Both the position numbers and the translations under genes were made by a program. From contig NZ_PDYG01000134.1 of the NCBI RefSeq assembly GCF_002735305.1, positions 62,001 to 126,000 on the forward strand: a stretch of 64,000 nucleotides of DNA, read 5' to 3'. Below the pieces are notes generated by a model. It did no database searches, was not told the origin of the DNA, and saw nothing but the letters and a program-made list of their open reading frames with translations. The DNA comes from Agathobacter ruminis. GTDB taxonomy: Bacteria > Bacillota > Clostridia > Lachnospirales > Lachnospiraceae. Of the stretch, positions 5,071 through 51,616 are shown piece after piece (position 1 is the first letter of the stretch; every line of letters begins with the position of its first letter).

Positions 5071-5081
5071 GAGAGGGTTAA

Positions 5082-6152
5082 ATGAAAATTGTAAAAGCAA
5101 TTGCAAAGGGAATCGGAATTGTGCTCGGAGCCGCAGTACTTTCTGTGATTATTTTTGTGGCGGTGTTGACTGCAACAGAATACAATCCTTCGGATGTCGA
5201 GGCGGTTACGCCTGCCGGAGAGGCGCAGAAGACACTGTCAAAAGGGGACACATTTACCATTGCGACATGGAATCTTGGATTTGGAGCACTCGATGAGACT
5301 GCTGATTTCTTCATGGACGGCGGACAGATGGTACAGCCGGCAACCAAAGAAGAATCGATTGCCAATGTCGATGCATTCAAAAACGCATTGTCAAAGATGA
5401 ATGCGGATGTGATTTTTCTGCAGGAAGTGGACACGGATTCCAAGCGCAGCTATCATGTCAATCAGGTGGATTCGATTGCCGATGGACTGCAGGGATATCA
5501 AAATGCTTTTGCATATAATTTTAAGACCCTCTATGTGCCTTATCCGATTCCGACCATCGGAAAGGTAAACAGCGGAATAGCTACTTTTTCGCAGTATGAT
5601 ATGAGTGAGGCGGCGCGCGTGAAACTGCCTTGTCCGTTCTCCTACCCGGTCAGACTGGTCAATCTGAAGCGATGCCTGCTGGTGACAAGGATTCCGATTG
5701 CAAATTCGGATGCACAGCTGGTATTAGTCAACCTGCATCTGGAAGCATATGACGACGGAGAAGGAAAAATTGCCCAGACCAAACAGCTGAAAGAATTGCT
5801 GAACAAAGAGGTCAAAGCCGGCAATTATGTCATTGCGGGTGGTGATTTTAATCAGACTTTTTCAAATGTGGATACCTCTTCCTATCCGTTGCTCTCAGAG
5901 GATTTATGGAAGCCGGGCGCTATTGATGTGACAGGGTTTGAGGGCATGACCTTTTATGCGGACAATCGCGTGCCAACCTGCCGTTCACTGGACAGGGTGC
6001 TTGCGGAAAGTGACCGCGATGATTTTCAGTATTATATGCTCGATGGTTTTATCGTATCTGACAATCTGACGGTCAAATCGGTTGAGACAAAAGATTTTGG
6101 ATTCAAAAATACGGATCACAATCCGGTGACCCTGGAGGTACAAATCCCATAA
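5082..6152 (+). CDS. Exported endonuclease/exonuclease/phosphatase (EEP) family protein
   Basis: A 356-residue protein with one N-terminal hydrophobic segment (about residues 8-28), so it is likely membrane-anchored or secreted, followed by an EEP (DNase I/sphingomyelinase fold) domain. Visible fold markers are ATWNLGFG near 62, LQEVD near 111, GGDFNQTF near 249 and TDHNPVTLEV at the extreme C-terminus, which supply the Mg-binding Asn/Glu and the catalytic Asp/His residues. Such proteins cleave nucleic acid or phospholipid head groups; the substrate here is unknown. GGAGAGGG precedes ATG 5082. It ends a same-strand run before a probable terminator. Confidence 0.85.
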   Translation: MKIVKAIAKGIGIVLGAAVLSVIIFVAVLTATEYNPSDVEAVTPAGEAQKTLSKGDTFTIATWNLGFGALDETADFFMDGGQMVQPATKEESIANVDAFKNALSKMNADVIFLQEVDTDSKRSYHVNQVDSIADGLQGYQNAFAYNFKTLYVPYPIPTIGKVNSGIATFSQYDMSEAARVKLPCPFSYPVRLVNLKRCLLVTRIPIANSDAQLVLVNLHLEAYDDGEGKIAQTKQLKELLNKEVKAGNYVIAGGDFNQTFSNVDTSSYPLLSEDLWKPGAIDVTGFEGMTFYADNRVPTCRSLDRVLAESDRDDFQYYMLDGFIVSDNLTVKSVETKDFGFKNTDHNPVTLEVQIP

Positions 6153-6188
6153 AATCGGCATGAGCCTATTTGCCCCGTTTCGTCAAGT

Positions 6189-6220
6189 AAAAAAATTCTC
6201 AAAGAATTTTTGGGTTTTTT
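6189..6220 (+). terminator. Probable intrinsic terminator after the EEP gene
   Basis: AAAAATTC (6191-6198), a 5-nt loop and GAATTTTT (6204-6211), followed by GGG and six Ts. The stem is A/T-rich and weak, so termination may be partial. Confidence 0.5.
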
Positions 6221-6235
6221 ATAAATTATGCCAAG

Positions 6236-6264
6236 TGGTTTTCCGATACTATATATTGTATAAT
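6236..6264 (+). promoter_or_regulatory. Sigma-A-like promoter of the small Cys-rich gene
   Basis: A consensus -10 TATAAT lies at 6259-6264, 46 bp before the start codon. The hexamer 17 bp upstream (TGGTTT, 6236-6241) is only a weak -35. The position between a terminator and an isolated gene supports it. Confidence 0.6.
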
Positions 6265-6310
6265 AGGTTTCGAGTTGGAACTAAACTTTGTATGTGTGAG
6301 GAGAGCGGAT

Positions 6311-6487
6311 ATGGCAGATGAAGTAGTTGATGAAGTAATGTTACAGGGTAATTGTAAGGGCAAAGCGGACGCAATTGTGAATTGCCAATGCAATATTGAA
6401 ACAGCACCAAAGCGTTGTGAGATGGCTGACAAGTGCATGTTTTATTCATACTACAAATGTGCTAAGCAGTGGAAGCGCTTGGCTTAA
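6311..6487 (+). CDS. Small six-cysteine protein of unknown function (58 aa)
   Basis: I do not recognise this protein. ATG 6311 follows GAGGAGAG at good spacing; the upstream in-frame TTG at 6275 has no ribosome site. Six cysteines lie at residues 15, 25, 27, 36, 42 and 50, giving the pattern C-x9-C-x-C-x8-C-x5-C-x7-C. The N-terminus is acidic and the C-terminus basic (KCAKQWKRLA). There is no signal peptide, so a cytoplasmic metal or iron-sulfur site, or a redox role, is plausible. It has its own promoter and a strong terminator, making a single-gene unit. It is not the SCIFF radical-SAM precursor, whose cysteine spacing differs. Confidence 0.72.
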   Translation: MADEVVDEVMLQGNCKGKADAIVNCQCNIETAPKRCEMADKCMFYSYYKCAKQWKRLA

Positions 6488-6490
6488 AAA

Positions 6491-6523
6491 GGTTCCCATG
6501 CATTGCATGGGAGCCTTTTTTTT
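6491..6523 (+). terminator. Strong intrinsic terminator after the Cys-rich gene
   Basis: An 11-bp stem pairs 6491-6501 with 6505-6515 (GGTTCCCATGC / GCATGGGAGCC, one G-T pair) with a 3-nt loop, followed by eight Ts (6516-6523). Confidence 0.92.
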
Positions 6524-6573
6524 GTTAAAATAAGAAAAAGAGGGTATTGCGACTAGTGAAGGAGGCTGTTTTT

Positions 6574-6864
6574 ATGAGATGCAGAAGAACACCAATGGAA
6601 GCAGAAGTCCTGGAATACAAGCTTGACTGCGGAATGGAAGATGGATTTACACTTTGGTCTGAAATCGTGACGGCAGAGGGTTATATTATCACAGATAATC
6701 TGATCAAGATTCAGAGACCGAACGGCTCTATCGTTTGTCCGTATATTGCGCATCATAGAGGTCGTACATATATCAATGAAGGGGACTATATCATCATTGA
6801 TGATGACGGAACCAAACATGTATGCGGCAAGAATAAAGTATTCGAGCGCTACGAGAAATTGTAA
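6574..6864 (+). CDS. Small hypothetical protein with a phage-like GDY C-terminal motif
   Basis: A 96-residue protein starting at ATG 6574 behind GAAGGAGG; the in-frame TTG at 6547 lacks a ribosome site. The C-terminal half (NGSIVCPYIAHHRGRTYI, then EGDYIIIDDDG and FERYEKL at the end) resembles the small phage-encoded proteins that end in PGDWI-x-DxDG...FxxxYE; this is my recollection of a pattern, not a database hit. The function is unknown. It is followed after 20 bp by the phosphodiesterase gene, which could be co-transcribed. It may be a domesticated phage remnant. Confidence 0.65.
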   Translation: MRCRRTPMEAEVLEYKLDCGMEDGFTLWSEIVTAEGYIITDNLIKIQRPNGSIVCPYIAHHRGRTYINEGDYIIIDDDGTKHVCGKNKVFERYEKL

Positions 6865-6884
6865 GAATCAGACTGGAAATAACG

Positions 6885-7379
6885 ATGAAAAAGATTTTGG
6901 TACTGAGCGATTCACACGGTGAAGTGGATGCGATGGTTCAGGCGGTACATCTGGAGAATCCCGATATGGTGATTCATCTGGGTGATTGTATGCGTGATGC
7001 AACAAGATTAAAACAACAATGCCCGGAGATTGTGCTGGAACAGGTTCCGGGGAATTGCGATCTGAGCATGGATGTTTGTACGCGTGTGTTGCTGGTGAGT
7101 GGAATGCCGATTATGATCTGCCATGGGCATGAATATGGCGTGAAAATGGGCCTGCTTGGCTTGCGTCTAAAGGCAGAAGAACTGGGTGTAAAGGCGGTAT
7201 TATTCGGCCATACGCATCGCGTATTTTATGAAGACTTAAATGGAATTATCTATCTGAATCCGGGGAGCATCGGTTCTCCGCCGTATGAAATATCACCGAG
7301 TTACGGGATTTTGACTGTGGACGGGCAAAATGAAAAGATACGATATGATGTGAAATACCTGGAAGATGTGGTTTGTTAG
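6885..7379 (+). CDS. YfcE/MJ0936-family metallophosphodiesterase
   Basis: A 164-residue calcineurin-like phosphoesterase. All metal-site motifs are present in order: LSDSHGE (residues 6-12), HLGDC near 34, PGNCD near 58, CHGHEYG near 80 and FGHTHR near 107, followed by LNPGSIG. The family hydrolyses phosphodiesters with Mn2+; the natural substrate is usually unknown. The SD is weak (GGAAA about 8 nt before ATG 6885). The gene lies between two unrelated small-protein and ATPase genes on the same strand. Confidence 0.88.
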   Translation: MKKILVLSDSHGEVDAMVQAVHLENPDMVIHLGDCMRDATRLKQQCPEIVLEQVPGNCDLSMDVCTRVLLVSGMPIMICHGHEYGVKMGLLGLRLKAEELGVKAVLFGHTHRVFYEDLNGIIYLNPGSIGSPPYEISPSYGILTVDGQNEKIRYDVKYLEDVVC

Positions 7380-7420
7380 AACCCGCATCTTCCTTAATTT
7401 TTGTTTGATGAGGGAGCAGT

Positions 7421-8728
7421 ATGTATAATCAGGTATCGAGACTGTTGATGTATGGCGATCTGGCAGAAAATGAACTCCTATGGGAGCTTGCGCAGATCTT
7501 TGAAAAATTTGAAACCGGCAATTATGACAAAGTGACACTGGTGCGTGAAATTCATACGCAGATGAAGCATCTGCTGGAAATTGCGACCAATTACGGATTT
7601 GATGACAACCTTTGGCACAATTATCTGACTTTTTATCTGATGATGAACGAGAATCCGTTTTCCATCACCTGTGAAAAGACCGGTGCAAGCGACGGCAGCG
7701 TCAATGCGCTGGTACAGGGCGATCTAAAGATCATGAAAGAATTGTTTGATTATGATTTTGCTCCGATTGAAGCAGCGCTCGAAATTGACTGCTTCACACG
7801 CATCAGCAATTATCATGCGATTCAAAAGCCGGAGCTGATGTACAACAAGAATGTCAGCACCAAGGTGCGCGCACTGAGCAGACAGCTTGAAAGCGCAGCC
7901 GATGAGCAGGAATTCTTTGCCTGTCTGACAGATTTTTATCGCGATTACGGTGTCGGTATGTGGGGGCTGAACAAAGCCTTCCGTATCGAAGAAACGGATG
8001 AAAATCATATGCAATTCGTCCCAATCAACAATATGGATGCGGTGACGCTCGACGATTTGATCGGTTATGAATTGCAGAAACAGAAACTCGTCGACAATAC
8101 GGAAGCTTTTGTGCAGGGAAGAAAGGCGAACAATGTTCTGCTTTTCGGAGACTCCGGAACCGGTAAATCCACGAGCATCAAAGCGATTGTCAATGAGTAT
8201 TATGATGCGGGGCTGCGCATGATAGAAATCTATAAGCATCAGTTCCGCCATCTGTCCAATGTCATTGCACAGATTAAGAATCGCAATTACAAATTCATCA
8301 TTTACATGGACGATTTGTCTTTTGAAGAATTTGAAATCGAATATAAATATTTAAAGGCCGTCATCGAGGGCGGTGTGGAGACAAGACCGGAAAACATCCT
8401 GATCTATGCGACCTCCAACCGTCGCCACCTGATCAAGGAAAGCTGGAATGACCGCAATGACCAGGAACATCAGAACGACCGTCACCACTCCGATACGGTC
8501 GAAGAGAAGCTGTCACTGGTCAACCGCTTCGGTGTGACCATCAATTATTCAAAGCCGAGTCAGAAAGAATATTTCCATATCGTCACCGAACTTGCACACA
8601 AGGCCGGTATCGATATGCCGGATGAACAGCTGCAGGCAGAGGCCAACAAATGGGAGCTTTCGCACGGTGGCATTTCCGGACGAACGGCACAACAATTTAT
8701 CAATTATTTGTTAGGATTTAAGAGGTAA
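7421..8728 (+). CDS. DUF815-family AAA-type ATP-binding protein
   Basis: A 435-residue cytoplasmic ATPase. The N-terminal ~200 residues are helical and without recognised motif. The C-terminal part has a Walker A GDSGTGKST (about residue 246), a Walker B-like FIIYMDDLSFEEFE (about 295), a sensor-like YATSNRRH (about 330) and a later RTAQQF. This matches the DUF815 family (DnaA/ClpX-like AAA core) of unknown role. It lies 2 bp before the ABC-F gene, so the two are translationally linked. Confidence 0.85.
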   Translation: MYNQVSRLLMYGDLAENELLWELAQIFEKFETGNYDKVTLVREIHTQMKHLLEIATNYGFDDNLWHNYLTFYLMMNENPFSITCEKTGASDGSVNALVQGDLKIMKELFDYDFAPIEAALEIDCFTRISNYHAIQKPELMYNKNVSTKVRALSRQLESAADEQEFFACLTDFYRDYGVGMWGLNKAFRIEETDENHMQFVPINNMDAVTLDDLIGYELQKQKLVDNTEAFVQGRKANNVLLFGDSGTGKSTSIKAIVNEYYDAGLRMIEIYKHQFRHLSNVIAQIKNRNYKFIIYMDDLSFEEFEIEYKYLKAVIEGGVETRPENILIYATSNRRHLIKESWNDRNDQEHQNDRHHSDTVEEKLSLVNRFGVTINYSKPSQKEYFHIVTELAHKAGIDMPDEQLQAEANKWELSHGGISGRTAQQFINYLLGFKR

Positions 8729-34852: not shown

Positions 34853-35944
34853 ATGTTATTCCAAATTTATGGCAGTACATCCGGAACACAGCTTCTCGGA
34901 TGGTTAATGGTTTTCGTTGGACTAATCTTATTAAACGAAATCGCACGACGTACCAAGATTGGCGGAATTGCAATCCTTGTTGTAATCCCGATTATCTTAA
35001 CAATTTACTTTATCGCAATTCAGTGTGGAGCATTTGGTGGTCATTCAAACCAGACTTATGAATACATGAATGGCTGGTTCCATTACTTCAAGCTCTATGC
35101 TGCAACCATCGGATGCATCGGTTTCATGATGATCAAGTACGAGTGGGGCATTGGAAAATCTCACTGGTTCAAGGCTTGGCCATTCGTAATCGTAGCTGCA
35201 AACATCCTGATTGCAGTTGTATCTGATCTTGAGTCTGCATATCATGCATTCCAGGTTACCGGCGATTTGTCCGGAGCATGGTGGGCATCCAACGAAGGTG
35301 TATTCCTTTATGGTGGATGGTGGAACATCTTGAATGCACTTGCCGGCATACTGAATATCTTCTGTATGACCAGCTGGTGGAATGTATACAGCTCAAAAGA
35401 CCGCAAAGATATGTTGTGGCCTGACATGACTGTATGGTTCATCCTTGCATATGATGTATGGAATTTCCAGTATACCTATGCAAACCTTCCGACTCACTCA
35501 TGGTATTGTGGTGTTGCTCTTCTTCTTGCACCTACCTTTGCAAATGCATTATGGAACAAGGGTGGCTGGATTCAGAACCGCGCAAACACTTTGGCAATCT
35601 GGTGCATGTTCGCACAGGTTGTACCGCTTTTCCAGCTGAGCGAGAATTTCTCAGTATTGCCTTCCCTTTACAAGGGCGCTACCGGATCTGCACTTGATCT
35701 CTATGACAAGGCAATTGCTGTATACCAGAGCGGAACAAATACCGCAAACGAAGTGGTTGCAGGTATGGGCATTACCGCAAATCCAATTCCGCAGGGTGTT
35801 GTTTCAATTCTTGCACTGGCAATTAACGTGATTGTGCTTGCCGTAATCATTAAGAGAGCAAAGGCTGCACATATCAATCCGTACAAGGCAGATGTTTTTG
35901 TTGGAACAAAGGATTTTGTTGAAGCAGAAGCAAGACGTGCATAA
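34853..35944 (+). CDS. DUF5692-like multi-pass membrane protein
   Basis: A 363-residue protein with about ten hydrophobic segments and unusually many tryptophans (for example ACWW-like AWWASNEGVFLYGGWWNIL, about 142-160). I think it matches DUF5692, a family of unknown function; this is recollection, not a search. AAGGAGGAG precedes ATG 34853. It converges on the PucR regulator and, through it, neighbours the hydrolase-ACP-kinase operon, so transport of that operon's substrate is a reasonable guess, nothing more. Confidence 0.7.
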   Translation: MLFQIYGSTSGTQLLGWLMVFVGLILLNEIARRTKIGGIAILVVIPIILTIYFIAIQCGAFGGHSNQTYEYMNGWFHYFKLYAATIGCIGFMMIKYEWGIGKSHWFKAWPFVIVAANILIAVVSDLESAYHAFQVTGDLSGAWWASNEGVFLYGGWWNILNALAGILNIFCMTSWWNVYSSKDRKDMLWPDMTVWFILAYDVWNFQYTYANLPTHSWYCGVALLLAPTFANALWNKGGWIQNRANTLAIWCMFAQVVPLFQLSENFSVLPSLYKGATGSALDLYDKAIAVYQSGTNTANEVVAGMGITANPIPQGVVSILALAINVIVLAVIIKRAKAAHINPYKADVFVGTKDFVEAEARRA

Positions 35945-35966: not shown

Positions 35967-35997
35967 ATAGAGACGGCGTATTTGCCGTCTCTATTTT
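35967..35997. terminator. Bidirectional terminator between convergent genes
   Basis: ATAGAGACGGC (35967-35977), a 6-nt loop and GCCGTCTCTAT (35984-35994), then a T run. It lies between the DUF5692 gene and the minus-strand PucR gene, whose last codons overlap it. Confidence 0.88.
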
Positions 35998-37565
35998 TGT
36001 ATGTCCGTCCAGCTGATCTCGTTTTGCATACGCATGATATTGAAGGAAATTAGTATCATCGCGTTCTGATCTGCATTGTGCGGATTGAGATTGGTCAGTT
36101 CTATGATTTTGTTAATACGGAAATAAAGTGTGTTGCGGTGAATGTGTAATTGCTTACAAACATGGCTTACATCACCGATGCATTGCGTATAAACATATAA
36201 GGTGTAAAGCAAATTGGTGTTATGATGTGTATCATATTCCTGCAACTGTTTCAGCTGTGGAAGGGAAAACATTCGTATGTCCGTATGCTGGCCAAGTGTT
36301 TGCACCATGTGCATTAGGCGATAGTGATCATAGAAAAATACATGATTACGCGCATGAAACATAATAGCGGTATCGATTGCAGCGCGGGCTTCCAGGAGAT
36401 GTCCGCGCGCTTCTGCAAGCACGGTAAATGGCGAGCCGACGCCTATATGAACATAAGGAGTGGAAACAAGCTGGTTTTCGCATTGTTCCACGATGGAATC
36501 CATGTCATAAGCCAGAGTGGCATAACTGGCCAGATAAATAATCTGATTGTGCTGAATTGTATAGATGCAATTGCCGAAGATGCGTTTGAAGGCATTGCTT
36601 AAATCGCCAAGCACATAATCTTCAGGGTTCTCCTGAGCAATATCCACCACAAAAATATATTTATAAGGAAGCATTTTGTATCCGAAGGCTTGGAATCGTT
36701 CTTCTTTTATATCATTTAAACTTGAATTTTCGCTTAAAAGCGAAGATAGCAAAGTCGTGTAGTAATTGCTGCGGCTGCTTCTCGAAAAATCCGAGCGCTG
36801 CATATATACTCCTAAGAGCGTTGCAACCTTAGACAGATATTGCTTCAAAAGGGGCGAAAGGTTTTCGGCAGGAGGAAGAAACACACTAAAATAACCCAGT
36901 GCGATATCATTAAAGACGATGGGCGTAAAATAGTTTTGAAATTGTCCACCCACATGGTTGATTACGATGGTTTTACTCTGTTGACTGTGTCTTCTTCGAG
37001 ACGCAATATTTAAATCTTTTATCACCTGAGGCGGAATAAAACCGCTTTGGTTATCACGGGCGAGGTCTTCGCTGAAAAATTCAAAATTATCGGAACTGGC
37101 AATGACCGTAAACGAATTGTCGACAATATTGATCGGATAATGGAACAGGGATGCAATCTGGTTTGCCAAAACCTGAATGCCGCCATTGTGGTAGATGCTG
37201 TCGGAGATTTTTGCGAGTTGTTCATCCGTGCGATATGCAGTGAGATAACAATTTTCAAAGCAGTCCAGGCAGGCAAAATATTCTTCCTGATTGCGAAAGA
37301 TTAATCCGCCGGAAAGGCTGCTTAAGAAACTGTCGTCGTTGTCTGCGACAGTCGGCCGGTCGTCCCACAGAATCACGGTGATTTCCGGCAGAGCTGTAAG
37401 CTCCTGCAAATCAGACCATTTACAATAATAAATAATCTGCGATGAATAATTTCCACGCGCAGGGATAAGAGACTGCATTTGAGCATAATCCGCTTTTAAA
37501 TCTGTTTTTGGCAAAATTGACATTGTGCAATCGCCTAATTCAAGAATCAGAGTGTTTAAAACCAT
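35991..37565 (-). CDS. PucR family transcriptional regulator
   Basis: A 524-residue regulator. The C-terminal PucR HTH_30 is clear: LLYTLYVYTQCIGDVSHVCK, then LHIHRNTLYFRINKI, close to the end. Ahead of it lies a GGDEF-like/CdaR middle domain (YMLPYKYIFVVDIAQ to SPFTVLAEARGHLLEARAAI), and the N-terminal ~230 residues look like a sensory (GAF or PucR N) domain. PucR proteins usually activate adjacent catabolic genes when their substrate is present. The start at 37565 follows AAAGGAGTAA on the minus strand. It diverges from the CocE operon, its likely target. Confidence 0.88.
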   Translation of the reverse strand: MVLNTLILELGDCTMSILPKTDLKADYAQMQSLIPARGNYSSQIIYYCKWSDLQELTALPEITVILWDDRPTVADNDDSFLSSLSGGLIFRNQEEYFACLDCFENCYLTAYRTDEQLAKISDSIYHNGGIQVLANQIASLFHYPINIVDNSFTVIASSDNFEFFSEDLARDNQSGFIPPQVIKDLNIASRRRHSQQSKTIVINHVGGQFQNYFTPIVFNDIALGYFSVFLPPAENLSPLLKQYLSKVATLLGVYMQRSDFSRSSRSNYYTTLLSSLLSENSSLNDIKEERFQAFGYKMLPYKYIFVVDIAQENPEDYVLGDLSNAFKRIFGNCIYTIQHNQIIYLASYATLAYDMDSIVEQCENQLVSTPYVHIGVGSPFTVLAEARGHLLEARAAIDTAIMFHARNHVFFYDHYRLMHMVQTLGQHTDIRMFSLPQLKQLQEYDTHHNTNLLYTLYVYTQCIGDVSHVCKQLHIHRNTLYFRINKIIELTNLNPHNADQNAMILISFNIMRMQNEISWTDIQK

Positions 37566-37818: not shown

Positions 37819-39597
37819 ATGAGCAATGATAATCGTGAACGAATCATCGTGAAAAAAACCTTTGAAGGGGAAGAATTTGATGTCATCTATATGAAGGGCA
37901 CCCCGGGCAAGACAAAAGAAGAGATGGATGCAATGCGCGCCAGCGGCAATGTCAATGTCGATCCGGCAGCTGCCACATTCAGCTACTGCCCTGCATTGAA
38001 CACCTGCACTTATCAGGCGGGCCCTGGAATTATTTGTCATCGTGATACCCCTGTTAAGATGCGTGACGGTGTGACAATTTACGCAGATATTTATGTACCG
38101 GAAAATTTAACAGAGAAAGTTCCTTGTATTGTATCATGGGGAATTTTCGGTAAGAGACCTGCAGAAGGCCAGGATGAGTGGAAGCTGATGGGTGTTCCTC
38201 CAAAGACAGTTTCCAATATGGCAAAATTCGAGTCTGCGGATCCCGGATATTGGTGCCGCAACGGATATGCTGTTGCAAACGTAGATGCGCGTGGTGTTGG
38301 TAACTCAGAAGGTTATTGCAATCTGTGGGGGACCGAGGATGCGCAGGATGGATATGATTTCATTGAGTGGGCAGCACAGCAGGATTGGTGCAATGGCAAG
38401 TGTACTTTATTCGGAAACTCCGGTGTCTGTATGGCAAACTGGAAGATTGCATCACTTCAGCCACCGCATCTTGCATGTCTGGCAGCCTGGGAAGGAACTT
38501 CCGATTTGTATCGCGAATCTTATTTCTGCGGTGGTATTCCAAACCCTGCATATGAAGAGAATATTATCAAGGAAGTTGCCTGCAAGACTTATGTAGAAGA
38601 TACCGTATCAATGGTGAACAAGTATCCTGAAATGAATGCTTACTGGCGTGATAAACAGGTGAAATTCAAAGAAGTACGCGTACCTACCTATGTAACAGCA
38701 GGATGGGTTCACCATCATTTGCGTGGTTCTGTAGAAGGTTTCCGTCGTATTCGTGCACCAAAGAAGTGGCTTAGAATTCACCGCGACTTCGAGTGGCCGG
38801 ATGCATACAACCCGGATAACCTTGAAGAATTAAAGAGATTCTTTGACCGTTACTGCAAGGATATCAACAACGGATGGGAGTTTACTCCAAAGGTTCGCGT
38901 GGATGTCCTGGATGCCTATGATTTTGATTATGCAGTACGCAGAAAAGAAAAAGAATGGCCATTAGCCAGAACCGAATATAAGAAGTTGTATCTGAATGCA
39001 GAAGCAATGGACGGCGGATTTGATACTTATGCAAATCCAAGCGAAGTTGTTTATGATCCAAATACAGAGACAACTGAATTCTTAATTCCTGTAAATGAAG
39101 ATATCGAAATCACCGGATACATGAAGCTTCACCTGGAAGTTGAATGCCGTGGATACGACAACATGGATATCTTCCCATGGGTATTAAAGTACAATGCAAA
39201 CAAGGAATATGTGCCGATTGAAGTAATGGGTGCACCATATAGAGGCGCATGGGGATTCTGCCGTGCTTCTCACCGAGACATGGATCCGACTGCAAAAGAT
39301 TTCCAGCCGATTCAGTCACATTTGTACAATGAAAGACTCGAACCGGGCAAGATTTATCCGCTTGATATTGAGATGTATCCACACAGCCGCATCTGGCACA
39401 AAGGAGAATATATCGTGGTTCGTCTCGCGGGCAAATTCATCAAGACAGAATGGTTCCACGATGCTGCCATGAATCACAACGTGGACAATGGAGACGGCAT
39501 GCATGTCATCCATACCGGAGGCGAGCATCAGTCTTATCTGCAGGTTCCTGCAATTCCACCGAAATATGTATCCGGTGATTATGTTTACAGAGGTTAA
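37819..39597 (+). CDS. CocE/NonD family serine hydrolase
   Basis: A 592-residue alpha/beta hydrolase of the CocE / X-Pro dipeptidyl-peptidase class (S15-like). TPVKMRDGVTIYADIYVP (77-94) is the family opening, NVDARGVGNSEG (154-165) follows, and the nucleophile is Ser201 in FGNSGVCMANW. His321 in WLRIHRDFEWPD is the likely catalytic His. The usual GWYD acid is GWVH here (295-298), so the acid is missing or elsewhere. The C-terminal ~230 residues form the jelly-roll domain (VVYDPNTETTEFLIPV onwards). No signal peptide: cytoplasmic. ATG 37819 has GGCGAGGGAAAG upstream; ATG 37792 is less supported. First gene of a four-gene operon. Confidence 0.87.
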   Translation: MSNDNRERIIVKKTFEGEEFDVIYMKGTPGKTKEEMDAMRASGNVNVDPAAATFSYCPALNTCTYQAGPGIICHRDTPVKMRDGVTIYADIYVPENLTEKVPCIVSWGIFGKRPAEGQDEWKLMGVPPKTVSNMAKFESADPGYWCRNGYAVANVDARGVGNSEGYCNLWGTEDAQDGYDFIEWAAQQDWCNGKCTLFGNSGVCMANWKIASLQPPHLACLAAWEGTSDLYRESYFCGGIPNPAYEENIIKEVACKTYVEDTVSMVNKYPEMNAYWRDKQVKFKEVRVPTYVTAGWVHHHLRGSVEGFRRIRAPKKWLRIHRDFEWPDAYNPDNLEELKRFFDRYCKDINNGWEFTPKVRVDVLDAYDFDYAVRRKEKEWPLARTEYKKLYLNAEAMDGGFDTYANPSEVVYDPNTETTEFLIPVNEDIEITGYMKLHLEVECRGYDNMDIFPWVLKYNANKEYVPIEVMGAPYRGAWGFCRASHRDMDPTAKDFQPIQSHLYNERLEPGKIYPLDIEMYPHSRIWHKGEYIVVRLAGKFIKTEWFHDAAMNHNVDNGDGMHVIHTGGEHQSYLQVPAIPPKYVSGDYVYRG

Positions 39598-39611
39598 AGG
39601 AGGAAAAAATT

Positions 39612-39860
39612 ATGCCAATTCGTGAGGAAGTAATTGAAATTTTAGCAAAGAAAGCACAGGCTCTTTTCGGAGTTGATCCATCAACTTTAAATGAGAATAC
39701 CAGATTCATTGAGGATTTAAATTGCAAATCTTCTAACTTTGTACAGTTCTCTGCTGCACTTGAGGATGAATATGATGTCGAGGTTCCTTATATGGAATTT
39801 CGTAAGCTGACTACCTTTGGAGAAGCCGGCGATTACATCGGTGCTATGTTCGGAGAATAA
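39612..39860 (+). CDS. Stand-alone acyl carrier protein with atypical KSS site
   Basis: An 82-residue ACP-fold protein: acidic, helical, with ENTRFIEDLN leading to the prosthetic-group helix and ALEDEYDVEVP as in ACPs. The 4'-phosphopantetheine serine should be Ser40 in NCKSSNFVQF, where the canonical DSL is replaced by KSS and there is an extra Cys38. AAAGGAGG precedes ATG 39612. It lies 14 bp after the CocE gene and 12 bp before the acyltransferase, with no fatty-acid or polyketide genes near, so it is probably a dedicated acyl carrier for this operon (inference). Confidence 0.88.
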   Translation: MPIREEVIEILAKKAQALFGVDPSTLNENTRFIEDLNCKSSNFVQFSAALEDEYDVEVPYMEFRKLTTFGEAGDYIGAMFGE

Positions 39861-39872
39861 GAGGAGAAACCT

Positions 39873-40865
39873 ATGACCTTAATCGAAGAATTAATCGAAA
39901 AAGCAAAGGGATGTCCAAAGCGCGTTGCGCTCCCGGAGTGTGACGCTGTCAAGACTTTGCTTGCGGCAAAAAAAGTATTGGATGAAAAAATCGGAATCCC
40001 GGTACTGGTATCGGATCCGGCTGTGATTGCGCGGACGGCAAAAGAAGCGGGTGTGGATGTAAGCGGAATGGAAATCGTAGACTGTACGGATGAAGCTGCT
40101 GCAGAAGCGCTGGTGTCCCGCTATTGGAAAGAAGATATGTTGATTTCCGAAAAGGCATGCAAGCGCAAAATCAAGAATCCAATGTATTACGCAATGATGT
40201 TAGAGGCGGTTGGAGAAGTGGATTGTACATTCTGTGGACATGTAAATACCACGGGAGATGTACTGCTTGCGGCATCAACGATTATCGGTATGCAGGAAGG
40301 TGTGGATGTGCCATCAATTTTTGCACTCTGCGAGATTCCGGGATTCCATGGATCGGAAGGCAACCGTATCGTATTTGCGGATTGCGGACTCAATCCGGAA
40401 CCGACACCAGGAGAACTTGCAAGCATTGCAATTGCATCGGCTGACAATGTTCATGCGCTGATGGGATGGGAGCCGAGAGTGGCATTTCTGTCATTCTCAA
40501 CCTGTGGATCCGGAACGGCCGGATCGGTTGACCGTATTCTTGAGGCGCTCGCCATTGCAAAGGAGCGCCGTCCTGATTTGAAAATGGACGGAGAATTCCA
40601 GCTGGATGCAGCAATCGATCCTGAAGTGGCAGCCAAAAAGATTACGCGTCCGTCAGATGTGGCCGGCAAGGCCAATATTCTGATTTTCCCGGAACTGAAT
40701 GCGGCTAATATCGGTGTCAAGATGATGCAGAAATTCGCCGGCGGAGCCGGATATGGTCATACGCTTTCCGGATTTGCAAAGCCGGTCGCAGACAGCTCAA
40801 GAGGCGCAACCGTGGAAGAGATTGTCGGAGATATCGCGATGGTGATTCTTGCGGCAAACAAATAA
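39873..40865 (+). CDS. Phosphate acyltransferase (Pta/Ptb family)
   Basis: A 330-residue enzyme that exchanges an acyl thioester with phosphate. It shows ALPECDAVKTLLAAKKVL (residues 19-36), GHVNTTGDVLLA (about 118), MDGEFQLDAAI (about 238) and LIFPELNAANIGVKMMQKFAG (about 270), the Pta/Ptb hallmarks. The butyrate-type kinase behind it points to a Ptb-like substrate rather than acetyl-CoA. PlsX is a precedent for a related reaction on acyl-ACP. GAGGAGA precedes ATG 39873. Substrate chain length is not readable. Confidence 0.85.
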   Translation: MTLIEELIEKAKGCPKRVALPECDAVKTLLAAKKVLDEKIGIPVLVSDPAVIARTAKEAGVDVSGMEIVDCTDEAAAEALVSRYWKEDMLISEKACKRKIKNPMYYAMMLEAVGEVDCTFCGHVNTTGDVLLAASTIIGMQEGVDVPSIFALCEIPGFHGSEGNRIVFADCGLNPEPTPGELASIAIASADNVHALMGWEPRVAFLSFSTCGSGTAGSVDRILEALAIAKERRPDLKMDGEFQLDAAIDPEVAAKKITRPSDVAGKANILIFPELNAANIGVKMMQKFAGGAGYGHTLSGFAKPVADSSRGATVEEIVGDIAMVILAANK

Positions 40866-40883
40866 GATTAGGAGACTTCATTC

Positions 40884-41990
40884 ATGGGATATAAAATTTT
40901 TACACTCAGTCCGGGATCAACCTCAACAAAGCTTGCGGTGTTTGATGGGGATGAGATGCTTTTTAAAGCAAATGTGACACATGACCCACAGAAACTGAAA
41001 AGCTTCAAAAGAGTCAATGATCAAAAACCTTATCGCCTGGAAACTATTTTGGAAGAATTGAAGGCAAACCGGATTGACCTTCATGATATGGATGCCTTTG
41101 CCGCTTATTCCGGCGGCCTGGTATCAACTCCGGGCGGAATCTTTCCTGTCAATGACAAGATTTTGGAAGACTGTACATCCGGTCGTCTGATGGAACATCC
41201 GGCCATCCTTGGTGCACAGATTATTGATGCATTTGCAAAGGAAGTCGGAGTACCGGCATATCTGGTCAATCCGCCTGATGTGGACGAGTTTGAAGATGTG
41301 GCCCGTCTGACAGGAATGAAAGGCATTTATCGAGAATCACATGTGCATGTGCTCAATCAAAAAGAAGTGGCCATGCGTGCAGCCGCCGAACTCGGAAAGA
41401 AATACGAAGACTGCAATTTTGTAGTCTGCCATGTCGGTGGAGGACTCTCCATCACGGCGCAAAAGCACGGCCGCATTGTTGACGGCAATGATGTCTTAAA
41501 CGGGGAAGGCCCATGTGCGCCGAACCGCTCCGGCTATGTTCCGCTGATGCCTGTCGTAAAGGATTGCTTCTCCGGAAAATATACGCTCGACGAGATGAAA
41601 GCGCGTATTTCAAAGACCGGAGGATTAATTTCCCTCATGGGAACCGACGATATGCGCATTATCGATCAAAAGATTGACGAGGGAGATCAATGGGCGGAAC
41701 TTGTGATGCACTTCTTTGGTTATCAGCTTGCCAAATACATTGGTTCTTATGCCTGTGTCATGGAAGGCAAAGTTGACGCAATTGTAATGACCGGTGGCGC
41801 ATCCAATGACAAACGCTTCATCGAAATTGTCAAGAAGTACGCCGGCTGGATCGCACCATTTATCATCTATGGCGGTGACTTTGAAATGGAGGCACTTGCT
41901 GCCGGCGCCATTCGCGCACTTTCCGGCGAGGAAGCCACCAAAGAATATACCGGAATCCCTGTCTGGTCAGGATTTGATTTCGAACCATAA
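40884..41990 (+). CDS. buk: Butyrate kinase family carboxylate kinase
   Basis: Converts an acyl phosphate and ADP to the acid and ATP. The 368-residue ASKHA enzyme has TLSPGSTSTKLAVFDG (residues 6-21), YSGGLVSTPGG (about 74), ESHVHVLNQKEVAMRAAAELGKKY-type segment (about 151), CHVGGGLSITA (about 180), LNGEGPCAPNRSG (about 206) and MTGGASND (about 300). These are Buk rather than AckA signatures. AGGAGAC precedes ATG 40884. Last gene of the operon, closed by a terminator. Substrate may be butyrate, isobutyrate or another small acid. Confidence 0.87.
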   Translation: MGYKIFTLSPGSTSTKLAVFDGDEMLFKANVTHDPQKLKSFKRVNDQKPYRLETILEELKANRIDLHDMDAFAAYSGGLVSTPGGIFPVNDKILEDCTSGRLMEHPAILGAQIIDAFAKEVGVPAYLVNPPDVDEFEDVARLTGMKGIYRESHVHVLNQKEVAMRAAAELGKKYEDCNFVVCHVGGGLSITAQKHGRIVDGNDVLNGEGPCAPNRSGYVPLMPVVKDCFSGKYTLDEMKARISKTGGLISLMGTDDMRIIDQKIDEGDQWAELVMHFFGYQLAKYIGSYACVMEGKVDAIVMTGGASNDKRFIEIVKKYAGWIAPFIIYGGDFEMEALAAGAIRALSGEEATKEYTGIPVWSGFDFEP

Positions 41991-47566: not shown

Positions 47567-48300
47567 AAAAATATTTGTTTTATTCAATACCGTTTTTGGT
47601 AGTGATGCTTGTGACAGGGTTGATTTGCAGATTCTCGATTCATCAAACCAATCTTGATGATTATAACGTGGCATTTATCTGGGAACAGGAAAAAGACGAG
47701 TCCGATGATGCAAAAGAGGAATCAAGTTTTAATTTGGTGGATAATGTGATAGAGGTTTGGCAAGAGGATCTCAATCCGGAGATGACGCCATATGTTTTTA
47801 CAGCGACATGTCTTTCTGAGCCGGTTGTGGATGCCTGCGTAGTTGACCAATTGGTTCGTGTGGAAAAGGTAATTTCAGGAGATGATGTCACCGAGGGAGA
47901 AGAGTTTTATCTTTCCAGCTATAATGTTGGTTTGATGGGAGATGCGGAAACAGAACATGAGCTGAACAGGGCGGTGACTTCGCTCAACATGGGATTTACC
48001 AATTTTATGAAAGTTGGGAAAGAGTATTTGGTATTTGTGCAGTATTTTTCTTATTCCCATGAGTTAAAAAAACAATTTGCCATTACAGGAGAAGCTCTTG
48101 CGACGACTTATTTCGCATTAGAGGATGATAAGTGTGAGCCGGTATCGAAGGCACAGGTGGTGGACGACGAAACAGGCCATTATGTGAAATATTCAGATGT
48201 GAAGGATTATGAATATTTTGTCGGTTCTGAGGAAATTAAAAAGAAACTTTATGATGAGAAACATAAGATTATTGAAAAATATCTGAGGGATGCTTTTTAG
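47563..48300 (+). CDS. Membrane-anchored extracytoplasmic protein of unknown function
   Basis: A 245-residue protein with an N-terminal membrane anchor or uncleaved signal (YLFYSIPFLVVMLVTGLI, 4-21; CRF follows at 22, so a lipobox is conceivable but not canonical). The outer part is strongly acidic (EQEKDESDDAKEESS, about 41-55). I recognise no domain. Overlap of 4 bp (ATGA) with the ATPase gene shows co-translation. It could be an accessory or sensor of the exporter. Its stop overlaps the convergent hypA stop by 4 bp. Confidence 0.7.
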   Translation: MKKYLFYSIPFLVVMLVTGLICRFSIHQTNLDDYNVAFIWEQEKDESDDAKEESSFNLVDNVIEVWQEDLNPEMTPYVFTATCLSEPVVDACVVDQLVRVEKVISGDDVTEGEEFYLSSYNVGLMGDAETEHELNRAVTSLNMGFTNFMKVGKEYLVFVQYFSYSHELKKQFAITGEALATTYFALEDDKCEPVSKAQVVDDETGHYVKYSDVKDYEYFVGSEEIKKKLYDEKHKIIEKYLRDAF

Positions 48301-48308
48301 CATCCCTC
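48285..48308. terminator. Bidirectional terminator between convergent genes
   Basis: GAGGGATGC (48285-48293), loop TTTTTA, GCATCCCTC (48300-48308), followed on the plus side by TATTTCTTTT. It covers the overlapping stop codons (TTAG, 48297-48300) of the two genes. Confidence 0.8.
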
Positions 48309-48644
48309 TATTTCTTTTATATTAAATTCATTTCCCTGTAGCAAATAGGTCTTTTTGCTTCCGCAATGCGGGCAGGTTTTACCAAATTCAACGGTGGGAT
48401 ATTCCTGCTGACAATCTTCACAGAAGGTGACAGCAGGAATGGTCTCCACGATTAATTTGGCTGTTTTCATATGCTCGGATTTTTTGAGCACGGCCCAGTT
48501 CCACACATCATGCAGATAATCTTCGATGACTGTGGATACTTCGCCGAGTTCTAAGGTCACAGAGGAAATCTCTGTGAGATCATTCTCGACACAGATTTCC
48601 TCCACTTGTTTGATTACATGAAATACAACACCTAATTCGTGCAC
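48297..48644 (-). CDS. hypA: HypA-like metallochaperone
   Basis: A 115-residue protein with the HypA features: MHE at the N-terminus (His2 is the nickel ligand), SSVTLELGEVS (about 27-37), and a zinc site CEDC...CPHC (about 75-94). Normally HypA delivers nickel to [NiFe] hydrogenase or urease, with HypB. Neither hydrogenase, urease nor hypB occurs in this window. It follows the FeS flavoprotein gene by 12 bp on the minus strand and is likely in its operon. Confidence 0.88.
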   Translation of the reverse strand: MHELGVVFHVIKQVEEICVENDLTEISSVTLELGEVSTVIEDYLHDVWNWAVLKKSEHMKTAKLIVETIPAVTFCEDCQQEYPTVEFGKTCPHCGSKKTYLLQGNEFNIKEIEGC

Positions 48645-48656
48645 AATGAATTCTCC

Positions 48657-51422
48657 TTATTTGGTCTTGCGGACGAACGGACGCGCAAGCTTTTGCTTTA
48701 AGCCGTTGCCAAGTACATATTTTAATTTGTCTTCGCTCTTACGCATCACACTTGCACGAGGCAGGTCACGCTCCAGATGAATTGCATCAAATTCGCACTT
48801 GGTGGTGCAGATTCCGCATCCAACACACTGGTTCTCATCTACAATGGTTGCACCACATCCGAGACAACGCTTGGTCTCAATCTGAATCTGCTCTTCTGTC
48901 AGCGTACATGCTGCTGAACGGAAGCTGTCTTTTCCCACACCCGGCTTGGTTGCAGGTCTTTGACGCTTGGAATTATCATAATTTTCAACCAGAATATCTT
49001 CCTTATCCAACTCGACATAGTAATGTGGATCACGACCGATGGTCAATGAAGAATGTGGCTGTACGAAGCGATGGATGGAAATGGCTCCTTCCTTGCCGGC
49101 TGCAATTGCATCGATTGCGAATTTCGGTCCGGAATAAACATCACCACCGACAAAGATATCAGGCACACGGGTCTGATAGGTTACTTTGTCCGCAACCGGA
49201 TAATTGCCATGCCAGAATTCTACATCTTCTCCGTCGAGAAGACCGCCCCATTCGATTGCCTGTCCGACTGAAAGCAGGATATTTGAGCAAGGAATGGTCA
49301 TAGTATCATTCTCGTCATACTGTGGATTGAATCGTCCGTCAGCATCCTTGACACTGGTACACTTCTTGAATACAATTCCGGTTACATTGCCGTTTTCGGT
49401 GAGGATTTCCTTTGGTCCCCAGCCGCCCTGGATGAGAATGTCTTCGCTTTCGGCAATTTCGATTTCATCCGGAGATGCCGGCATGATATCACGGGTCTCA
49501 AGAGATACCTGATGTACTTTTGGAGATCCGCAACGGATTGCAGAGCGTGATACATCGATTGCAACGTTTCCGCCACCGATGACCACGGTATCACCGTTTA
49601 ATTTATAATCTTCGTTTTCTGTTGTGATATGAAGGAATTCAACACCGGTCATAACACCGTTTGCGTCTTCTCCCGGGACTCCAACCTTGCGGCCGCCCTG
49701 GCATCCGATTCCGATATAGAATGCTTTGTAGCCCTGTTCACGGAGCTGTGCGATGGTGATATCTTTTCCGACTTCGACACCGCACTTGAATTCAACACCC
49801 ATTTCTTTTAATACATCGATTTCTGCCTGTACGATATCCTTTTCCAAAACAAAGGAAGGGATACCATAGACAACCATACCACCCGGCTGTGCATTCTTCT
49901 CGAATACGGTAGGCTTGTAACCTTTTTCAGCCAGATAGAATGCGCAGGAAAGTCCGGCAGGACCGGCACCGATGACTGCGATTTTCTCTGTGAATTCACC
50001 CTTTAAGGATGGCACTACCTTCTTTGGAATGTAGCGTGTATCTGCATTCAAATCCTGCATTGCGATGAATTTCTTGATTTCATCGATGGATACCGCTTCG
50101 TCGATGGTTCCGCGTGTACATGCATCTTCGCAGCGGCGGTTACATACATAACCGCAAATTGCAGGAAGCGGATTGTTCTTCTTGATCAAAGCAAGTGCAT
50201 CCTGATATCTGCCCTGTGATGCCATCTTGATATAACCCTGTACTGCAATATGTGCAGGACAAGCGGTTTTACATGGAGCAGTTCCGGTTTCGTGCGTGTT
50301 GATACGGTTCTTGTCACGATAATCCTCGGTCCACATTTCCGGACCCCACTTTTTTTCGGCAGGAAGCGGCATTTTTGGATATTTCACCTGGCTGCCGTCC
50401 TTCTTGCATAATTTCTGTCCCAATGTGACAGCACCGGCCGGGCAATATTCTACACAGCGTCCGCAGGCAACACAGTTTTCGGTGTTGACATGTGCCACAT
50501 AAGCAGAACGAGACATGTTTGGTGTGTTGAAAAGCTGAGAAGTACGAAGTGCATAGCATACATTGACATTACAGTTACAAATCGCAAAAATCTTGTTTTC
50601 GCCATCGATGTTGGTAATCTGATGAACGAAACCATTGTCCTCAGCCTGCTTCATGATAGCAAGTGCTTCTTCTCTTGTGATATAGCGACCGCCTTTATTG
50701 GTCTCAACAACGTAATCAGCCATATCGCCGACTGCAATACACCAGCCTTCCGGGTCATCTGCACAACCTTCATCGAAGGTCTTGCGTGACTGACGGCAGG
50801 AACATGGGCTTGCGGCATATTTGCCATCATATTTGTCAAGCCAGTGTGAGATGTGCTCAACAGAAACAGATTCGTTTTCCATCTCAATTGCTTTCTCCAC
50901 CGGGATTACATGCATCCCGATTCCGGCACCGCCAAGCGGAACCATCGGAGTGATTTTCTCGAGTGGAAGTCGACTCATGCGCTCGAAGAAACGACCTTCT
51001 TCAGGATGAGCAGCCAGTACATCTGCATTCATGTTTGCAAATTCTGCAGCACCCGGTACATACATTGGGAGGATCCACTGCTTTTCATGCTTTTCGTTTT
51101 CCCAGTTGTACTCGATGATACCCACTTCAGACATTTTGTCTAACTGCTCGAGCAGGTATGCCTCGTCGAGCCCTGTCAGTTTCTTCATGTCCTCAAGCGT
51201 GCGAGGTTTACGCTTTTTCATCTTGATGGCAATTTCTGCCTGCTCGTCCGTAATCAATGGAGCGATACCCCAATATTCCGGAGATTCTTTTGTGATTTTT
51301 TCTTTTCCAAGCAAGATTTCAGCTCGGTCTGTTACGACCTTACCGAGACGAATGATCGCGTCTCTTGCCGGTTCGTCATTCTTGACGGTGTCTGGTACAT
51401 ATCCACCTAATGGATCAGCCAT
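48657..51422 (-). CDS. Large FeS flavoprotein: 4Fe-4S region fused to a glutamate-synthase-small-subunit-like NAD(P) oxidoreductase
   Basis: A 921-residue electron-transfer protein. Residues 1-180 are helical with a possible winged helix (PRTLEDMKKLTGLDEAYLLEQLDKM). Then come CSCRQSR...C...CIAVGD (about 207-230), CNCNVNVC (about 279-286) and a ferredoxin-type CVACGRCVEYCPAG (about 312-325). Next follows the GltD-like half: CKTACPAH, CGYVCNRRCEDAC, FAD-binding VIGAGPAGLSCAFYLAEKGY (about 476-495) and the NAD(P) site VVIGGGNVAIDVSR (about 616). A C-terminal pair CLGCGAT...CVGCGICTTKCEFDA (about 860-885) completes it. The partner substrate is unknown. ATG 51422 is preferred over TTG 51428. It is followed by hypA. 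Confidence 0.88.
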   Translation of the reverse strand: MADPLGGYVPDTVKNDEPARDAIIRLGKVVTDRAEILLGKEKITKESPEYWGIAPLITDEQAEIAIKMKKRKPRTLEDMKKLTGLDEAYLLEQLDKMSEVGIIEYNWENEKHEKQWILPMYVPGAAEFANMNADVLAAHPEEGRFFERMSRLPLEKITPMVPLGGAGIGMHVIPVEKAIEMENESVSVEHISHWLDKYDGKYAASPCSCRQSRKTFDEGCADDPEGWCIAVGDMADYVVETNKGGRYITREEALAIMKQAEDNGFVHQITNIDGENKIFAICNCNVNVCYALRTSQLFNTPNMSRSAYVAHVNTENCVACGRCVEYCPAGAVTLGQKLCKKDGSQVKYPKMPLPAEKKWGPEMWTEDYRDKNRINTHETGTAPCKTACPAHIAVQGYIKMASQGRYQDALALIKKNNPLPAICGYVCNRRCEDACTRGTIDEAVSIDEIKKFIAMQDLNADTRYIPKKVVPSLKGEFTEKIAVIGAGPAGLSCAFYLAEKGYKPTVFEKNAQPGGMVVYGIPSFVLEKDIVQAEIDVLKEMGVEFKCGVEVGKDITIAQLREQGYKAFYIGIGCQGGRKVGVPGEDANGVMTGVEFLHITTENEDYKLNGDTVVIGGGNVAIDVSRSAIRCGSPKVHQVSLETRDIMPASPDEIEIAESEDILIQGGWGPKEILTENGNVTGIVFKKCTSVKDADGRFNPQYDENDTMTIPCSNILLSVGQAIEWGGLLDGEDVEFWHGNYPVADKVTYQTRVPDIFVGGDVYSGPKFAIDAIAAGKEGAISIHRFVQPHSSLTIGRDPHYYVELDKEDILVENYDNSKRQRPATKPGVGKDSFRSAACTLTEEQIQIETKRCLGCGATIVDENQCVGCGICTTKCEFDAIHLERDLPRASVMRKSEDKLKYVLGNGLKQKLARPFVRKTK

Positions 51423-51616
51423 ATTCAATCCCTCTCTTTCCCTTTTCTAGGACAAATGCTCTATATAAATTATGGTTATAAAATCCCTTATAAAAATTTT
51501 AACATGGTTTAACTAGGGGTGTCAAAAGCTTCTTCCCAGTTTCCGTGTTCTTTTCTTGGTGCAACCAAAACCCCTATAAACACTGACTTTAGCCCTGTTT
51601 TTAAATGTAGATTTTC

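Follow-up and report, generated by a model that had tools for sequence, protein, structure and literature searches.

A CocE-ACP-Pta-Buk operon of Agathobacter ruminis as a candidate for ACP-dependent, energy-conserving deacylation

Four co-directional genes of Agathobacter ruminis, at 37819-41990 of a 64,000-nucleotide stretch of contig NZ_PDYG01000134.1 (hereafter the window), encode a CocE-type hydrolase, an apparently dedicated acyl carrier protein (ACP), a phosphate acyltransferase resembling Pta and a kinase of the butyrate kinase (Buk) family. Gene content and residue conservation make it probable, if far from certain, that these genes serve to deacylate a polyphenol-derived compound in a way that depends on the ACP and conserves energy. 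Gene linkage, the attachment serine of the ACP and the missing coenzyme A (CoA)-site arginines of the acyltransferase argue for the ATP-yielding deacylation on an ACP that a preliminary description of this DNA had put forward; its substrate, direction and chemistry, like the activity of the enzymes, are what we infer.

In the proposed pathway, Ser201 of the hydrolase would be acylated by a donor derived from a polyphenol. This donor may be an aryl ester, a dearomatised 1,3-diketone, or a compound of the dihydrochalcone or C-acylphloroglucinol type. CocE would then pass the acyl group on to the phosphopantetheine thiol carried by the ACP, the Pta-like enzyme would phosphorolyse the acyl-ACP to an acyl phosphate, and the kinase would use this acyl phosphate to form ATP, releasing the free acid. 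Any product of phloroglucinol type would proceed through PGR, DPGC, TfD and TAL where these enzymes are encoded, and would otherwise be excreted.

The operon and its gene products

The tight four-gene operon of the preliminary description was confirmed by coordinates, by intergenic gaps of 14, 12 and 18 bp, and by family profiles. All genes lie on the plus strand. The first (37819..39597) encodes a CocE/NonD-family alpha/beta hydrolase of 592 residues (TIGR00976, PF02129, PF08530), the proposed acyl-transfer head, which scored 202.5 bits against the TIGR00976 model CocE_NonD in a profile search (cut-off 66.3). It is followed by the dedicated ACP of 82 residues (39612..39860; PF00550, 23.3 bits, cut-off 20.8), with its serine in a K-S motif, and by the Pta-like phosphate acyltransferase of 330 residues (39873..40865), which lacks the CoA-site arginines. 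The last gene (40884..41990) encodes a 368-residue kinase that passes the TIGR02707 equivalog cut-off (400.6 versus 289.1 bits) and matches the solved structure 1x9j, a "probable butyrate kinase 2" (E 6e-94).

The acyltransferase had been labelled "Pta/Ptb". It is a member of PF01515 (PTA_PTB; 292.7 bits, cut-off 24) and nearer to Pta than to Ptb, but it falls below both equivalog cut-offs, with 255 versus 311.2 bits for TIGR00651 (pta) and 74.8 versus 410.5 bits for TIGR02706 (ptb). The latter score led us to reject an identity as Ptb; an identity as PlsX was likewise rejected (PlsX-type profile 16.6 bits, cut-off 29.1).

Linked acyltransferases lack arginines of the CoA site

Genomes and loci of the comparison are numbered G and L, respectively, G000 being the window's genome. 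PF01515 matches numbered 33 in 20 genomes: 16 ordinary Ptas, 9 ACP-linked Ptas and 8 Ptb-like proteins. The Ptb-like matches were left out of the residue comparison, and five of them were included in the Pta tree. Seven of the ACP-linked Ptas adjoin the ACP gene and two lie within 4 kb of it; six belong to sets with CocE and three to sets with a thiolase (see below). Arginine occupies window positions 88, 132 and 287 in 16/16 ordinary Ptas versus 0/9 ACP-linked Ptas, and the active-site residues Ser309 and Arg310 are kept in all 25 aligned proteins.

Pairwise alignment with the Pta of Methanosarcina thermophila places a gap at Arg87, Leu132 at Arg133 and Lys287 at Arg287, with Ser309 and Arg310 retained in the window protein. 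Arg87 and Arg133 of the Methanosarcina enzyme we take to be CoA-binding residues; for CoA, Iyer and Ferry (2001) reportedly paired Arg87 with the 3'-phosphate and Arg133 with the 5'-phosphate. The position of Arg133, as read by eye, is also kept in six solved Ptas. The arm of an ACP carries no 3'-phospho-ADP, and an ACP-using Pta is therefore expected to lack such arginines. Since those at positions 87 and 133, with the CoA role given above, are missing in the linked Ptas, an ACP is a plausible acyl carrier for the Pta-like enzyme. The earlier suggestion that the acyltransferase uses ACP and not CoA thus gains in likelihood from the sequences of 9/9 linked Ptas.

Ordinary Ptas formed one clade in the tree (support 99/96), with the linked Ptas outside it and the CocE-linked and thiolase-linked ones interleaved. 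A replacement of Asp316 by Glu was rejected as a mark of linked Ptas, Glu being found also in 7/16 ordinary ones. Nearness of a Pta to an ACP is in itself weak evidence, because another ACP is encoded no more than about 4 kb from some ordinary Ptas as well (in G001, G246 and G1151).

Recurrence of the gene set

CocE proteins like that of the window are rare: 3/392 genomes of the order have one at E 1e-60, and 4/391 genomes of the class and 6/398 of the phylum at E 1e-100, the window's genome and distant CocE being counted each time. The dedicated ACP was found in the order sample, with a profile built from the window's ACP and two relatives but without G138, only in the window's genome (167 bits) and in G138 (94.5 bits). 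The next best match there reached 55.7 bits, and both ACPs above 56 bits adjoin a CocE gene. A profile of five dedicated ACPs then served to search 12 CocE genomes, 7 of which gave a match at 105.8-153.7 bits; the best other ACP reached 49.5 bits. Four of the seven (G1147, G1151, G138, G756) had rows in that profile; the other three, G1148, G1149 and G1152, were newly detected. The total, including the window's own genome, is 8 genomes, in which the dedicated ACP appears clearly set apart from housekeeping ACPs by its sequence. It was not found in the other 5 of the 12: G262, G534 and G461, which carry a distant CocE, G1153, a Staphylococcus, and G1150, which has a close CocE. The dedicated ACP was missing from all four of the searched genomes in which CocE is distant.

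ACP and CocE genes are direct neighbours in 6/8 ACP genomes, in the order CocE-ACP in the window, G1147 and G1151 and in the order ACP-CocE in G138, G756 and G1152. The two lie within 4 kb of each other in 7/8, a PucR gene sitting between them in G1148. A Buk gene is found no more than 4 kb from the ACP in 7/8 genomes and a Pta gene in 6/8; the 8.5-kb contig of G1152 that bears its ACP-CocE pair has neither. Apart from a near relative with 93% identity in the ACP, the linkage was seen with ACPs of 41-63% identity, one of them in an Atopobiaceae metagenome-assembled genome (MAG). The arrangements comprise CocE-ACP-Pta-Buk, ACP-CocE with Pta-Buk 3-5 kb away, Buk-ACP-CocE and ACP-Pta-Buk. Gene order thus varies among genomes, and the linkage has therefore been maintained despite rearrangement. 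This association of genes exceeds chance, and linkage of the four genes in other genomes, which had been named as a check, is borne out by the 8 ACP genomes, with exceptions (L008, L009 and G1150) that are taken up below.

The hydrolase and the carrier protein

The closest CocE with a named source, from a Lachnospiraceae MAG, is 98% identical to that of the window. Ser201 and His321 of the window's CocE are invariant in 23/23 aligned homologs. Asp259, the catalytic acid of cocaine esterase, aligns with His298 of the window protein only in a weak pairwise stretch (-3.4 bits). His298 is invariant within a clade of 11 close CocE rows (support 100/100), and the column holds Ser, Asn, Thr or Gly outside it. 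The CocE clade tracks the presence of the dedicated ACP, 10 of its 11 rows coming from ACP-bearing genomes; in the tree, the label "noacp" for L014-L018 and L057-L061 is an assumption, as those genomes lie outside the ACP search. Clade positions such as His298, Arg322, Arg344, Trp478, Arg524 and Trp545 were considered as marks of ACP use and rejected because L010, from a genome without the dedicated ACP, has them as well.

The attachment serine is present in 10/10 aligned ACPs. The residue before it is Lys in all eight CocE-type ACPs and Ala and Gly, respectively, in two thiolase-type ones; the CocE-type proteins thus have K-S in place of the canonical D-S-L motif of fatty-acid ACPs, and the window's ACP falls below the fatty-acid ACP equivalog cut-offs. 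Near 4/8 ACP genes, at a distance of up to about 3.5 kb, there is a gene for a phosphopantetheinyl transferase (PPTase). Two are of AcpS type: that of L062 (PF01648 59.2 bits; TIGR00516 67.1 bits, above 59.8) and that of L011 (TIGR00556 69.3 bits, above 45.35; TIGR00516 52.7 bits, below 59.8). Longer PF01648 proteins are encoded near the ACP in L098 (44.6 bits) and L099 (37.2 bits). A tblastn search with these four PPTases gave no match in the other sequences tried (21 sequences, the window included). Phosphopantetheinylation of the ACP, on which the preliminary description had made its proposal depend, is suggested by the conserved serine and by the nearby PPTase genes.

A second set with a different head

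The window's genome holds a second set, Buk-thiolase-DUF35-ACP-Pta, at L138 6607-10888 (G000:C73). In G1152 (L139), thiolase-DUF35-ACP is followed by Pta-Buk 3.4 kb further on, and G1148 and G1149 likewise have relatives of the thiolase and DUF35 genes close to ACP-Pta-Buk, the DUF35 gene of G1149 being cut by the end of the stretch. The Ptas of L138 and L139 also lack arginine at window positions 88, 132 and 287. Against PhlC structures of the diacetylphloroglucinol acetyltransferase the thiolase scored 58-62 bits; other thiolases matched better, the best with 102.8 bits. A TetR-like gene, recognised by eye, is divergent from the L138 set.

This second set with thiolase and DUF35 suggests that ACP-Pta-Buk is a common unit to which more than one kind of acyl-transfer head can be joined. 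On a broader and more tentative view, to which we give somewhat less than an even chance, substrate-level phosphorylation would be modular in some anaerobes: an ACP thioester would replace the CoA thioester, and the constant part would be ACP-Pta-Buk, with a Pta that lacks the CoA arginines. Interchangeable heads (CocE or thiolase/DUF35) would cleave polyphenol-derived acyl compounds and load the ACP, and bond energy otherwise lost to hydrolysis would be conserved as ATP.

Phloroglucinol genes and the candidate acyl donor

Zhou et al. 2023 (PMC10470551) describe an anaerobic phloroglucinol pathway with the enzymes PGR, DPGC, TfD and TAL. G138 has relatives of phloroglucinol-cluster genes (cupin, SDR, 3-hydroxyacyl dehydrogenase, cyclase and BKACE) on the contig that bears the set, and G756 has the same relatives there minus BKACE (without TAL). 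The phloroglucinol genes of the window's genome and of G1147 are on a different contig from the set. In the window's genome they stand at L069 7996-17667 (G000:C8), with a DPGC relative 70% identical and a BKACE match of 357 bits; relative to G138, identities are 67% for SDR, 50% for TfD, 65% for TAL and 66% for the cupin. They are followed by genes for an FAD flavoprotein, whose best NCBIfam model is vinyl phenol reductase (306 bits, under the cut-off of 600), then an iron-sulfur protein and a NuoF-like protein. Relatives of all three occur near CocE in L011 and L010. L064 has two there, and at the margin of L062 part of a single one is seen. DPGC is present in 4/8 ACP genomes: the window's, G1147, G138 and G756.

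A polyphenol-derived acyl compound is our best guess for the acyl donor, and the bond cleaved is perhaps a C-C bond rather than an ester or amide bond, because of the phloroglucinol genes, the flavin/iron-sulfur reductases and the thiolase/DUF35 head. Among the candidates, a C-acylphloroglucinol would be the most attractive. Phloretin hydrolase (PF18089) was not found in 7/8 ACP genomes; it was found twice in the eighth, G756, and also in G262 and G1150.

Points against the proposed pathway, and other readings

A number of observations weigh against the pathway proposed here. The CocE proteins of L008 and L009, at 67-68% identity the nearest outside the near relative, stand in fetched loci from which the other three genes are absent; their genomes do contain the set, together with a second CocE in G1148 and, if two contigs of equal length are taken to be one, about 45 kb away from CocE in G1149. 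In these two genomes the Buk closest to that of the window (63-64%) is some 10 kb from the ACP, the Buk adjoining ACP-Pta having 49-50% identity. G1150 has a CocE of the clade, but neither the dedicated ACP nor a PF01515 match at E 1e-10 was found in it. Such cases, and the other head that ACP-Pta-Buk has in the window's genome, would be in keeping with CocE as a plain hydrolase and ACP-Pta-Buk as a separate, co-regulated device for acid activation or for short fatty acids. We hold this to be distinctly unlikely, given that ACP and CocE are direct neighbours in six of the eight genomes, in two orders, and that the CocE clade follows the ACP. No Pta was found on the 17.55-kb contig of G756, which has Buk-ACP-CocE, and most carrier genomes are MAGs with a completeness that is partial (73% for G138) or not known.

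The history of the acyltransferases adds to these points. Monophyly of the six CocE-linked Ptas was rejected by the approximately unbiased test (AU p 0.0046, with a long-branch warning). As the linked Ptas fall outside the ordinary clade, the arginines may be a gain there and not a loss here; judged from the alignment, the linked Ptas are without them under either scenario. In G1148, G1149 and G1152 no Pta other than the ACP-linked one was found, as might also be expected of an enzyme with a general role. If this Pta serves general metabolism, it may still depend on CoA, the acyl group moving from CocE or the ACP to CoA and on to a somewhat unusual Pta-Buk pair. This seems very improbable to us, the CoA ligands Arg87 and Arg133 being absent in every one of the linked Ptas.

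DPGC was not found in the other four ACP genomes (G1151, G1148, G1149 and G1152), so that the degradation pathway is no constant partner of the set. Nor is a replacement of phloretin hydrolase by CocE a clean one, a candidate that we rejected: G756 has both, and G1150 has CocE and PF18089 without the ACP. The kinase and Pta steps are reversible, and the set might run the other way, the kinase and Pta spending ATP to load an acid on the ACP and CocE acylating a small molecule for activation or detoxification. We regard this as unlikely, though it deserves to be kept in mind: the linkage to phloroglucinol degradation in G138 and G756 and the PucR-type control look catabolic, and the thiolase/DUF35 head of the sister set fits cleavage too, though thiolases can also run both ways. 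Under the deacylation that we favour, the four ACP genomes without DPGC would only cleave their compound and excrete the ring.

Neighbouring genes

A PucR-type regulator (35991..37529, minus strand; PF13556, PF17853) is encoded divergently, upstream of the operon. The preliminary description had asked whether the four genes recur with or without PucR and DUF5692. In 5/8 ACP genomes (the window's, G1147, G138, G1148 and G1149) the set has a PucR-like gene next to it in divergent orientation, but such a gene is not specific to it, since one also adjoins phloretin hydrolase in G262. DUF5692 is not a recurrent partner and was rejected as a member of the set, being found in 2/26 long loci, the window's contig and its near relative L007. 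In the window the DUF5692 gene (34853-35944) is 46 bp from PucR; in L007, about 4.2 kb of ABC-transporter-like genes (by eye; 4400-8221) separate the two.

At 48297-51428 of the window (minus strand), the gene for a 923-residue flavin/iron-sulfur oxidoreductase and a HypA gene resemble a putative isoprene reductase operon; the window's DUF5692 gene is about 12 kb from these genes, across the operon. DUF5692 is given as a neighbour of isoprene-reductase-type homologs, with a co-occurrence of 0.4 among 988, in a published account (PMC10134865). Two genes resembling CoA-transferase subunits by eye adjoin Buk in G756. At 8330-15959 of L064 (17.55-kb contig), two CocE genes of the clade have CoA-transferase-subunit-like genes (by eye) between them and no Pta.

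Comparison with known systems and significance

The usual teaching is that fermenters capture the energy of thioesters by way of CoA. The operon is like the Ptb-Buk and Pta-Ack systems, which start from acyl-CoA, in its two enzyme families and in the step from acyl phosphate to ATP, and differs in the carrier, here an apparently dedicated ACP with an acyltransferase without CoA-site arginines. PlsX (PF02504), which functions in phospholipid synthesis, is alike in the proposed chemistry from acyl-ACP to acyl phosphate, but belongs to a different family from the PTA_PTB protein of the window. Phloretin hydrolase/DAPG hydrolase (PF18089) removes the acyl group from an acylphloroglucinol and so resembles the reaction proposed for CocE; it is of another protein family, and we know of no ACP partner of phloretin hydrolase. 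With the PhlACB acetyltransferase (thiolase and DUF35) the sister set shares thiolase and DUF35-type genes, the linkage to ACP, Pta and Buk being a feature of the sister set. With cocaine esterase and other CocE-NonD hydrolases the window's CocE shares membership of TIGR00976 and the nucleophile serine, and its nearest solved structure is 3ib3, a CocE/NonD hydrolase.

The window's genome has relatives of genes of the phloroglucinol pathway, and G138 and G756 have them on the very contig that carries the set; the main text of Zhou et al. 2023 (PMC10470551) mentions neither CocE nor an acyl carrier protein. No description of a CocE-ACP-Pta-Buk set was found in searches of the openly licensed PMC literature, although this does not prove that there is none. 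The parts belong to known families, and their combination is, as far as the literature search reached, undescribed.

If confirmed at the bench, the pathway would represent a mode of energy conservation that is new for anaerobes. Pta without the arginines at positions 87 and 133, encoded beside an ACP, would provide a residue signature for finding further cases. An ACP route, if true, would explain how some anaerobes can benefit from compounds whose cleavage frees the energy of only one bond, and would give the anaerobic degradation of plant phenolics a further step at which energy is conserved.

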